This document shows, in pieces, positions 19,226 to 42,062 of a stretch of 64,000 bases of DNA. The DNA lies in contig NC_018212.1 in the NCBI RefSeq assembly GCF_000219625.1, positions 1,816,501 to 1,880,500 on the forward strand, read 5' to 3'. The position numbers and the translations under genes are program-made. Each line of letters opens with the position of its first letter. Within the stretch, counting starts at the first letter, position 1. The notes beneath the pieces were generated by a model, which was given only the letters and a program-made list of their open reading frames with translations, was not told the origin of the DNA and made no database searches. This DNA comes from Zymoseptoria tritici IPO323 (Eukaryota; Ascomycota; Dothideomycetes; Mycosphaerellales; Mycosphaerellaceae).

Positions 19226-19409
19226 TATTAGGGTCCGACCGGAGGTAGCTCTAGTTCGAACTAGTAACCTTAGGGTTTAGGGTAGGGCGCTTTACTACTA
19301 GGCTAAAAGTGCTAGAAGATAAGAATCTTAGAATACGGTTCTAAGATTACGCTCTACTTTTAAAGACTTAGCGCAGCCTAAGCTTATGCCTTAGGTACAG
19401 CCTATAATA
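19226..19409 (-). mobile_element. Short LTR-like element with tRNA-like boxes, RIP-degraded copy
   Basis: On the minus strand this 184-bp segment aligns from end to end with 26537-26710, with nearly all differences C-to-T or G-to-A plus about 10 extra bases internally. Its ends read TATTA...TAATA on the plus strand, the RIP-changed form of TGTCA...TGACA. It is flanked by an exact GATAC duplication (19221-19225 and 19410-19414). The A-box equivalent reads TAGCCTAGTAG and the B-box region AGTTCGAACTA, both altered by RIP. Confidence 0.8.
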
Positions 19410-38761: not shown

Positions 38762-39570
38762 TCAAATCACAAATTCTGCCTCCGTTCTTCCTTCGACCAT
38801 AGCCCTCTGCCACAGGCCGCTTGCCTGCAACGTCTTCCTCATCTGCTCGAGATTCTCCTCCTTCGTGCCGTTCACATCCAGCTGCAACTGCGTTAGCATC
38901 CATTCCTCGACCCGCAGCCACGCCAGCAAACTCACCTCGATCAACACGCCACGGTCTCGATACGCATCCTCTACCGCCCTTGTCTCGGCCTCGTATTCCG
39001 CGAATCGCCTCTCGAACTTCTCCCTGCTATCGTTACTGTCACGCCCACGACCCAAATACCGTGCCTCTGCATTCTGCTTCGTGACTCGCAAGCACACCAC
39101 AATGTCTGGCTTTGGGAGCACGCCTACATCTCCTCCATCGGGCGCCGCGAGCGGCAATTGATCCTGAAACGGCCACGAATCGAAAGTCTCCAGCTGCTCG
39201 ACGCATCTTGGAAAGCCATCGACCAGGATACCTCTCAACTTCGGGCCATCCTTGGTCAGAGCGTCCTTGATGGCCTGCTCGATGAACGGATTCAGATCGT
39301 CAGAACTCAGAAATCCTTGATTGTCCAGCTTGTCCTGAATTTGCACGGCGAGCGGTGAAGTGCGATTTTCACGCATCCAACTGCGCAGCCCATCGCCGAC
39401 AGAGTAGTGGGAGAGCTGATATGTCTCGCCGAGGTGGCTGCAGATGGTGCCCTTACCGGCGCCGGGAGCGCCTGAGAAGATTGTCAGCGATTGCGAAGTG
39501 TGCCATCAAATGGTGGGGATTGAAACGGACCAAGCACGAATATGACTGCGAATGGGCGTGTTGCGCTCAT
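38762..39570 (-). CDS. Nucleoside monophosphate kinase (adenylate/UMP-CMP kinase family)
   Basis: Two exons, 39531-39570 and 38762-39471, with a 59-bp intron (39472-39530; GTCCGT donor, GCTGAC branch, CTCAG acceptor), giving 249 residues. Splicing builds the P-loop exactly: FVLGAPGAGKGT, residues 11-22, with Lys20. The NMP-binding signature DGFPR is at residues 98-102. A short LID region (RYLGRGRDSNDSREKFERRFAEY) resembles UMP/CMP kinases more than long-LID adenylate kinases. It phosphorylates an NMP to NDP using ATP; which base is used cannot be read from sequence. It starts 346 bp from, and divergent to, the viperin-like gene, which consumes a nucleoside triphosphate, suggesting a supply role. 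It has no organelle-targeting sequence that I can see. Confidence 0.85.
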
Positions 39571-39916
39571 TTTGAGTTGAAGTGTTGATGTGGGCTTGCT
39601 TGCGATGCCGGAGTGAACAGATATGGAAAAGTGATATGTTGACTCGCGCACACCGCTTGTTCCCTGCAAGCCAAACGCTGCCTGCCGCCAAACTTGCACG
39701 GACAATGCCAGCAAGCGCAAGAACGAAACAGGCAGCAGCCAATCACTGGACGCTTCTTTCTTGCTGTCAGCAGCAAACGCGAGCAAATACCAAAATGCGG
39801 TCAAGTCAAAAGCTCAGATACCTCAACAACCTCACTCACTTCCTCATCTTGCAAACACTCCTCACATCTCTTCCAGCGAGTCAGGCTTACGAATCTTTAC
39901 CGCTACGAACCTCAAG
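39571..39916. promoter_or_regulatory. Shared divergent promoter of the NMP kinase and viperin-like genes
   Basis: 346 bp separate the two start codons. A CCAAT box (39739-39743) lies near the middle, in the CAGCCAATCACTGG context. The viperin side has a CT-rich leader (CTCACTCACTTCCTCATCTT). Head-to-head spacing this short allows co-regulation. No inducible element can be assigned from sequence alone. Confidence 0.5.
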
Positions 39917-40990
39917 ATGGCCGTCTTGTTGGCGCACGGAACAACGGTGGTGTTGACTTTGATTGCCATTATTTCCATCGTGTTCGCACTCAAATGGCTC
40001 AGACGCCCTCAACCAGGCACAGTCCCGAAACGGAACCGTGACAGCACTTTGGCTCCATTGAGCGGCTCCTCGGACAAGCCACCCGCCCCAGTGTCCGTCA
40101 ACTACTTTCCATCTCGCAAATGCAACTACACCTGCGGCTTCTGCTTCCATACCGAAACCTCCTCATACGTCCTACCCATTTCAGAAGCGAAACGCGGCCT
40201 CCGCCTGCTCGCCGAAGCCGGAATGCTCAAGCTCAACATCGCCGGTGGAGAACCTTTCCTCTACCCAAAGCTCCTCACCGAACTCCTCCGCTACTGCAAG
40301 GAAGAACTCCGCATCGAAAGCACATCCATTGTGACCAATGGCAGCAAAGTCACGGAGAAGTGGCTGCGCAATAACTGCCATTGGCTAGATATCCTTGCCG
40401 TGTCGTGCGACTCTTTCAACCCGGAGACGAACAAAAAAATCGGTCGTGGCGATGACGGAGGAAATGTGATCCGGCTCTTCCAAATCGCAGAGTGGTGCCG
40501 AGAGTACGGCATCAAATTCAAACTCAATACCGTCGTCAACATCCATAATTGGGACGAAGACATGGTCGAGGAGCTCGAGCGCGTGGCACCATTTCGATGG
40601 AAGGTCTTCCAATGCCTGATCGTCGCCGGCGAGAACGATGATGCGACCAGGAAGAGGGATGCAAGGAACTTCTTGGTGACCGAGGAGCAGTGGCAGACGT
40701 TCTGTGAGAGGCATCGACACTTGCCGTTCTATGTTCCGGAGGACAATGCTTCCATGGCAGGAAGCTATTTGCTTTTGGACGAGTACATGTGCTTTCTGGA
40801 CAAGGGTGAGGGCATGATGGTGAAGAGTGAGTCGATCCTGGAGGTTGGAGTGGAGGAGGCAATGAGGCAAGTCGTTTGGGACACGAAGTCGTTTGTAGAC
40901 AGAGGAGGGATTTATGATTGGGGAAGGGAGGATGGGTCGCAGCAAAGTGGATGCGGAGGTGGTGAGAAAGCCAAGAAACTCGATTGGTGA
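39917..40990 (+). CDS. Viperin-like radical SAM enzyme (RSAD2 family)
   Basis: Intronless, 357 residues, close to the 361 of human viperin. Residues 9-27 form a membrane helix (TTVVLTLIAIISIVFALKW), replacing the amphipathic helix of animal viperin. The radical SAM CX3CX2C motif is CNYTCGFC with Cys69, Cys73 and Cys76, ligating a 4Fe-4S cluster. GGEPFL (110-115) contacts SAM. Viperin-specific blocks follow: EAKRGLRLL, VTNGS, LDILAVSCDSFNPETN, IGRG, RWKVFQCL, a LLLDEYMCFL segment and the C-terminal KLDW end. Viperins convert CTP (some fungal or bacterial ones UTP or others) to 3'-deoxy-3',4'-didehydro nucleotides that terminate viral RNA synthesis. The start at 39917 is chosen because upstream frame sequence is leader-like. 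The divergent NMP kinase supports a nucleotide-linked role. Confidence 0.93.
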   Translation: MAVLLAHGTTVVLTLIAIISIVFALKWLRRPQPGTVPKRNRDSTLAPLSGSSDKPPAPVSVNYFPSRKCNYTCGFCFHTETSSYVLPISEAKRGLRLLAEAGMLKLNIAGGEPFLYPKLLTELLRYCKEELRIESTSIVTNGSKVTEKWLRNNCHWLDILAVSCDSFNPETNKKIGRGDDGGNVIRLFQIAEWCREYGIKFKLNTVVNIHNWDEDMVEELERVAPFRWKVFQCLIVAGENDDATRKRDARNFLVTEEQWQTFCERHRHLPFYVPEDNASMAGSYLLLDEYMCFLDKGEGMMVKSESILEVGVEEAMRQVVWDTKSFVDRGGIYDWGREDGSQQSGCGGGEKAKKLDW

Positions 40991-41864: not shown

Positions 41865-42062
41865 ATGCAGCTCCTCGCCTTGGGTACCCTCATCACCATG
41901 GCACTTGCCGCAGCCGTCCCTGATCCCAACCCGAAACCGTTCCCGTCAGCCTGCACGATTTGGGACTGCGCACCGGAATGCAACCACGTCTGCAGCGACC
42001 CTCAAGGTGCAAATGGAGGTGGAGGGGACTCAGGAGGTGAAGGAGGTGGACCTCCCGCTTAG
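41865..42062 (+). CDS. Tiny secreted four-cysteine peptide (copy A)
   Basis: 65 codons with good start context (CACCAACATG). Residues 1-17 form a signal peptide (MQLLALGTLITMALAAA), followed by VPDPNPKPFP. Then comes a cysteine core C30-x4-C35-x3-C39-x3-C43 (CTIWDCAPECNHVC) and a Gly/Pro-rich acidic tail (GGGGDSGGEGGGPPA). The same cysteine spacing and the same pre-region VPDP-P occur in the peptide at 57698. The DNA after both stop codons is also similar. It could be an effector, antimicrobial peptide or small cell-surface peptide; I do not recognise a family. As a short gene it would be missed by length-filtered prediction. Confidence 0.6.
   Translation: MQLLALGTLITMALAAAVPDPNPKPFPSACTIWDCAPECNHVCSDPQGANGGGGDSGGEGGGPPA

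Follow-up and report, generated by a model that had tools for sequence, protein, structure and literature searches.

Whether a fungal viperin gene that lies head-to-head with a nucleotide kinase gene forms a working enzyme pair is a question raised by chromosome 7 of Zymoseptoria tritici IPO323. There, a stretch of 64,000 nt (NC_018212.1, positions 1,816,501 to 1,880,500 of the forward strand; hereafter the window) carries a viperin-family radical S-adenosylmethionine (SAM) gene divergent to a nucleoside monophosphate (NMP) kinase gene. Viperins are among the clearest immune enzymes common to bacteria and animals, and the literature passages searched do not state what fungi use them for. In vertebrates, the viperin gene RSAD2 is arranged divergently with that of the nucleotide kinase CMPK2, which is thymidylate-kinase-like. 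A preliminary description of the window had proposed that the fungus keeps the same two-enzyme logic, making chain-terminating nucleotides, perhaps against mycoviruses or transposon RNA; as a whole, that interpretation is partly supported. We give an even chance to a different proposal, namely that two enzymes encoded on either side of a common upstream region form a nucleotide-modifying module, which would have arisen separately from the CMPK2 pairing and be silent most of the time.

The identification of the first gene as a full-length viperin was borne out. Its 357-aa product contains CNYTCGFC, GGEPFL, SCDSF, VFQCL and the C-terminal KLDW, and scores 244.1 bits with NCBIfam NF038283 (cut-off 180) and 226.3 bits with PADLOC pVip. 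The CX3CX2C motif, the GGE motif and the family profile score place it in the viperin/SAND (RSAD2) family, and its predicted structure has the viperin fold; the curated cut-off of the animal-type viperin model TIGR04278 (450 bits) is not reached, the score being 370 bits. A hydrophobic N-terminal stretch was seen on reading the translation, and the protein is probably membrane-anchored. Fungal viperins were known before (PMC9642334, PMC10732462). PMC11218377 mentions fungal viperin-like genes in general terms only, and PMC11185175 contains no occurrence of ‘fung’, ‘kinase’ or ‘UTP’. Searching the genome (39,686,251 bases in 21 contigs; the window is C7:1816501-1880500) with TIGR04278 found the window gene again, with 369.9 bits, and one other gene, at C1:730230-731087, with 348.4 bits, on a contig that is presumably chromosome 1. 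This C1 copy is a full-length, single-exon open frame ending in GLDW, and it is of the His-type at the position discussed next.

What sets the window viperin apart is Phe64, which the earlier motif list did not include. Over positions 57-357, it is the sole departure from columns in which 90% of rows share one residue, in an alignment of the window viperin, the C1 copy, 18 prokaryotic viperins and the Trichoderma virens structures (columns filled in at least 15 rows; 9dfn excluded from the consensus; one of the 21 His rows, 9dfu, being an engineered variant). Judged in this way, the C1 copy differs from two such columns, both elsewhere in the protein (Tyr317, Ala322). Among 29 other natural viperins, His occupies this position in 28 (the C1 copy, T. 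virens enzyme 1, mouse, Nematostella and 18 plus 6 prokaryotic loci) and Phe in T. virens enzyme 2. That T. virens has a Phe-type second enzyme is already known from PDB titles, which give 9dfn as the second viperin-like enzyme of this fungus with bound CTP and SAM, and 9dfu as its F40H variant; since F40H is the variant, the Phe is natural. No paper on these two structures was found in the literature searched. Over 293 columns, the window viperin is 54.9% identical to T. virens enzyme 2, with which it shares the natural Phe, but it is equally close to enzyme 1 (7n7i, 55.5%).

The His after VN[YFW] at the end of strand 1 is thus absent from the window protein. That this His should define the viperin family is our own reading, and the name viperin-like is given to T. 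virens enzyme 2 even though it lacks the residue. Residue 64 lies two positions past the near-invariant Asn62 (Ser at locus L059) and, in the predicted model, just beyond strand 1 (residues 60-63), for which reason it may face the active site; Pro65 follows directly. Because the paired viperin lacks the near-invariant His, formation of 3′-deoxy-3′,4′-didehydro (ddh) nucleotides is not to be assumed, which weakens the earlier claim that the pair produces chain-terminating nucleotides.

Comparison of the sequences leans, not conclusively, towards a change from His to Phe that happened twice independently, in Z. tritici and in T. virens. The four fungal viperins form one clade (100/100), in which the two T. 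virens enzymes pair with each other (92/87 in the 22-row tree, 98/97 in the 9-row tree), hence the leaning. For the 9-row tree the His/Phe column was masked. Long branches drew a warning from the tree-building program. No animal viperin was included in the trees, mouse and Nematostella having been compared over a 59-residue stretch. Holding the two Phe-types together was not rejected by the approximately unbiased test with 22 rows (p 0.188) and was rejected with the 9 masked rows (p 0.008), as was joining the C1 copy with 9dfn (p 0.008, 9 rows). Among the four fungal sequences 19 columns are informative: nine group the two Z. tritici copies, eight group the window viperin with T. virens enzyme 1, and two group the Phe-types, the His/Phe column being one of the two. 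A single Phe-type lineage common to both fungi is disfavoured, not conclusively, by the 9-row test and the site patterns.

The second gene had been described as an NMP kinase with intact P-loop and DGFPR, 346 bp away on the opposite strand, and this held on coordinates and on a Pfam ADK (PF00406) score of 74.2 bits against a cut-off of 26.8 (249-aa reading). Profile score, P-loop and DGFPR place it in the adenylate kinase superfamily. The P-loop GAPGAGKGT is split by intron 1 and joined across it, and a second intron had been overlooked in the reading of open reading frames (ORFs) because it is in frame; an alternative 48-bp form of the latter, ending at 38888, is possible. Excising intron 2 deletes an insert missing from the URA6-like kinase, improving the BLAST match from 64.3 to 71.6 bits, and raises the TIGR01351 score from 87.0 to 94.4 bits. 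The protein is therefore likely to have 231 aa, not 249, and the gene probably has two introns. Since it has no N-terminal extension, the kinase is probably cytosolic.

Its Pfam matches were PF00406, AAA_17 and AAA_18 only, the thymidylate-kinase domain PF02223 of CMPK2 not being among them. Neither subfamily cut-off was reached: the kinase scored 76.7 bits with the UMP-CMP kinase model TIGR01359 (cut-off 207.6) and, in its 231-aa form, stayed below the 168 bits of the adenylate kinase model TIGR01351. The URA6-like gene of the same genome, a positive control for TIGR01359, passed with 237.5 bits. The window kinase is therefore an extra, diverged member beside the URA6-, ADK1- and ADK2-like genes, the six ADK-family matches in the genome being read as four genes. 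It has the family, P-loop, DGFPR and LID of fungal URA6/UMP-CMP kinase and ADK1, but is only ~24-26% identical to the URA6-like gene. The top PDB matches were adenylate kinase 1aky and UMP-CMP kinase 1tev, presumably the yeast and human enzymes. In SVGD, the window kinase has Val where 1aky has Thr and both 1tev and the URA6-like protein have Ala; in DGFPRCVEQ it has Gln, as does the URA6-like protein, at a position that is Asn in 1tev. We take these positions to be specificity sites; AMP, UMP and CMP are not distinguished by them. Judged by the matches above, the enzyme is a putative NMP kinase of the adenylate/UMP-CMP type. As a separate matter, a CMPK2-like kinase in this genome was rejected, the sole PF02223 match lying on contig C8.

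Table 1 Features of the window (positions count from its first letter)
Feature	Position	Strand	Description or basis
Degenerate telomere repeat	19270..19287	+	TTAGGGTTTAGGGTAGGG; chromosome 7 1,835,770-1,835,787, near the proposed accessory-chromosome fusion site; coordinate match to the base
Kinase gene (NMP kinase)	39570..38762	-	ATG at 39570; predicted 3 exons, 231 aa
Kinase exon 3	38762..38881	-	through stop codon; sequence
Probable kinase intron 2	38882..38935	-	54 bp, GTGAGT...GCTAAC...TTGCAG; splice signals and improved matches
Kinase exon 2	38936..39471	-	P-loop GAPGAGKGT, SVGDGLR, DGFPRCVEQ, LID; sequence
Kinase intron 1	39472..39530	-	59 bp, GTCCGT...CTGAC...CAG, CTGAC branch-like; sequence
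Kinase exon 1	39531..39570	-	MSATRPFAVIFVL plus first base of the following codon; sequence
Shared upstream region of the divergent pair	39571..39916	.	346 bp, ATG-to-ATG spacing; one CCAAT at 39739
Viperin-family radical SAM gene	39917..40990	+	ATG at 39917, stop codon ends at 40990; single exon, 357 aa, hydrophobic N-terminal stretch, C-terminus KLDW
Phe64 codon	40106..40108	+	His in 28/29 other natural viperins; exception T. virens enzyme 2, 9dfn
CNYTCGFC radical-SAM cluster-binding motif	40121..40144	+	CX3CX2C (Cys69, 73, 76); sequence

The preliminary description had stated that prokaryotic viperins are found next to nucleotide kinases, a pattern that is well established. A CMPK2-like kinase adjoins 15% of bacterial viperin genes (PMC11249213), and a P-loop kinase-like ORF (EG[LIV]D[GA]xGK type) lay near, or was fused to, the viperin at 12 of 24 prokaryotic loci examined. 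These comprised 6 of 16 plasmid records, 12 of 22 loci from a prokaryote scan (the other ten, L041-L046 and L048-L051, were dropped as weak or partial matches judged to be other radical SAM proteins) and 6 further genomes from a later search (eight over the cut-off, two of them repeating earlier loci). The count is a lower bound because flank lengths vary (~4-6 kb; <1 kb on one side of L036; ~1.5 kb or less for the last six), and it is not a rate because the loci are few and many are cyanobacterial. In a Pfam scan of five of the prokaryotic kinases, every one exceeded the threshold of PF02223 and three that of PF01712 as well. No ADK-type kinase was detected in the flanks of the 24 loci, of which 18 were searched by BLAST, with the window kinase as query, and by motif, and 6 by motif only.

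The prokaryotic systems (pVip, PADLOC PDLC02903-PDLC02905) thus resemble the window pair in combining a radical SAM enzyme with a P-loop nucleotide kinase, encoded nearby or as part of a fused protein, and differ in their PF02223-type kinases and in the His, present in 24 of 24. The vertebrate RSAD2/CMPK2 pair shares with it a viperin with hydrophobic N-terminus and LDW end and a divergent nucleotide kinase, whereas the ADK family of the kinase, Phe64 and a reportedly silent chromosome arm belong to the window pair. Of the idea that the same logic is kept, a viperin beside a member of the NMP kinase family survives; the pair itself is not the same, the kinase being PF00406 and not PF02223. At most, then, the fungus would follow that logic with a component taken from a different family and would not have retained a CMPK2 pair. 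Animal CMPK2 is itself thought to be of bacterial origin, independent of viperin (PMC11249213).

Two of the prokaryotic genomes deserve a remark of their own. At L057 (G026:C99), in a genome from the phylum of L038, a 574-aa frame combines a P-loop kinase-like part (GLDASGKSK) with a viperin in an apparent fusion. In the genome of L037, a second viperin match (G003:C67:21142-21959) falls into two pieces with one internal TAA and is apparently interrupted. Among viral contigs, eight stretches matched a pattern, none being a relative.

In the module that we propose, the ADK/UMP-CMP-type kinase would phosphorylate nucleoside monophosphates, raising or restoring a nucleoside triphosphate (NTP) pool. 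The viperin-family enzyme would bind an NTP (the Phe-type structural relative was crystallised with CTP) and make a modified nucleotide, either a ddh-nucleotide or, His being replaced by Phe64, some other product of radical chemistry. The pair would probably be off in axenic culture and turned on under particular conditions.

The chief rival, possible though not the reading we would choose, is coincidence: in a compact genome, a viperin paralogue would have come to lie divergently beside an NMP kinase that is diverged and unrelated, and the two would not cooperate. Divergent neighbour genes are common in compact fungal genomes. An ADK-family immediate neighbour is expected by chance with a probability of ~6e-4 for a given gene and ~1e-3 for two viperins, about half of these divergent, a post hoc estimate that takes four ADK-family genes among ~12,000 genes (extrapolated from chromosome 7 gene counts, PMC4589918). 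This low figure counts against coincidence, as does the fact that a nucleotide kinase is the partner class known beforehand for viperins.

Several observations, however, weigh against a joint function. The adjacency comes from one genome and a post hoc estimate near 1e-3, and the kinase falls below both subfamily cut-offs and belongs to another family than those at prokaryotic loci. Contig C1, home of the second viperin, has no ADK- or thymidylate kinase (TMPK)-family match in genome-wide profile searches in which best candidates only were scored; no kinase was recognised by eye, without a Pfam scan, among the ORFs on both sides of the C1 copy. Among the flanking genes of the pair with a Pfam match (ten ORFs scanned), no nucleotide theme is apparent. 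An altered product is opposed by reports that all viperin orthologues tested up to 2021 appear to turn CTP into ddhCTP (PMC8124187) and that eukaryotic viperins are limited to CTP or UTP derivatives (PMC11249213). The silent state described below is assigned to the pair by coordinate, the cited passages neither naming the two genes nor showing their own chromatin or expression. Nor does the shared upstream region help: the central CCAAT box of the preliminary description is present and is not notable. At least one CCAAT occurs in 846 of 2000 dinucleotide shuffles and in 49 of 104 equal tiles of window 28-64 kb, and we rejected it as evidence of co-regulation, a single copy not being above chance.

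A more specific form of the module proposal is that in filamentous fungi (here and in T. virens) Phe-type viperin evolved repeatedly from a duplicated His-type gene, with changed radical chemistry and, here, with an ADK-type kinase recruited head-to-head. We put this forward tentatively and think it rather doubtful as a whole.

The chromosomal setting bears on when such a pair could act. The telomere repeat of Table 1 coincides with an imperfect repeat (n = 3) reported on IPO323 chromosome 7 at nt 1,835,770-1,835,787 (Schotanus et al. 2015, PMC4589918). From 1.8 Mb, the same work describes a segment of ~865 kb that is enriched in histone H3 lysine 27 trimethylation (H3K27me3), almost without H3K4 dimethylation (H3K4me2) and without gene expression, and proposes translocation of, or fusion with, an accessory chromosome, the fusion site lying near 1.83 Mb. 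The viperin-kinase pair, at chromosome 7 1,855,262-1,857,490, is 19.5 kb past the telomere relic and hence, by its coordinates, beyond the proposed fusion site, in the accessory-like segment. The same hallmarks are reported in sister species, with an estimate of ~0.6 Mb (PMC7448473). The chromosome 7 arm is syntenic with separate accessory-like unitigs (PMC13059725, in the main text of which neither ‘viperin’ nor ‘radical SAM’ occurs), and its accessory-like nature is also supported by PMC5844332, PMC6510446 and PMC13221638.

Defence against viruses or transposons by ordinary ddhNTP, made from kinase-fed CTP or UTP and halting viral or transposon RNA synthesis, is on this evidence unlikely. 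It is the function of the family in animals and bacteria (PMC11249213), and another fungal viperin/SAND, that of Thielavia terrestris (TtRSAD2), dehydrates its substrates CTP and UTP (PMC9642334). Against it stand Phe64 and the location, by coordinate, in a segment reported as unexpressed and H3K27me3-rich (PMC4589918), which argues against a constitutive role of either kind and so weakens the earlier suggestion. No link of a fungal viperin to a mycovirus response was found within the limited literature covered. The transposon-rich window, earlier adduced in favour of a transposon target, fails as an argument locally, for the pair lies outside the block with a signature resembling repeat-induced point mutation (RIP). 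That block spans ~4-28 kb of the window (TpA/ApT 1.53-2.25, GC 0.39-0.50), whereas at 38-42 kb TpA/ApT is 0.34-0.36, without RIP signature; composition is gene-like from 28 kb onward, placing the pair >10 kb inside the gene-like part. The AT-rich block itself (window 4001-28000, TpA/ApT up to 2.25) presumably consists of transposon relics at the fusion site.

It is improbable that the window viperin is a decaying or functionally reduced paralogue in which Phe64, with Pro65, weakens or abolishes dehydration while the gene persists on dispensable, silenced DNA. A Phe where 28 of 29 have His, the accessory-like segment and a branch of 0.71 in the 22-row tree, the longest of the four fungal ones (others 0.33-0.44), would fit such decay. 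Yet the frame is open, no other position conserved at 90% or more is altered, the 9-row tree gives the window viperin a branch of 0.61 against 0.63 for the C1 copy, and T. virens keeps a Phe-type enzyme crystallised with CTP and SAM. Least probable is a small biosynthetic role, the modified nucleotide being a precursor of a nucleoside natural product for infection or competition and not an intracellular chain terminator: an earlier hypothesis that a fungal enzyme makes antiviral natural products (PMC9642334) and the conditional-type chromatin reported at this location (PMC4589918) speak for it, but no biosynthetic-cluster gene was recognised among the ten ORFs scanned (four without Pfam match, some genes unscanned).

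In the Pfam scan of ten ORFs around the pair, the pair’s own two matched as expected and four others matched, as an iron-containing alcohol dehydrogenase, a PQ-loop protein, a GH36 alpha-galactosidase and CobW; the remaining four had no match. A small open frame at 41865-42062 (+) encodes a 65-aa product that starts like a signal peptide and contains four cysteines (MQLLALGTLITMALAAAVPDPNP...); it may be a small secreted protein.

Within the limited literature covered on fungal viperin, kinase, mycovirus and the T. virens structures, no fungal viperin-kinase pair is described. Neither an ADK-type kinase head-to-head with a viperin nor a Phe-type viperin on an accessory-like arm was found in the literature searched. 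Two viperins in one genome that differ at a near-invariant residue beside an active-site strand amount to a natural experiment on that residue, and the Phe-type copy with its extra nucleotide kinase is a testable pairing. If the fungal pairing is real, its kinase comes from a different family than in known pairs. That the Phe-type copy lies on an accessory-like arm prompts the thought that fungal accessory chromosomes may serve as vehicles for defence-type enzymes. Should repeated evolution of the Phe-type and recruitment of an ADK-type kinase prove true, a viperin-kinase pair would have been assembled independently once more, after those of bacteria and animals, and now on accessory-chromosome DNA.

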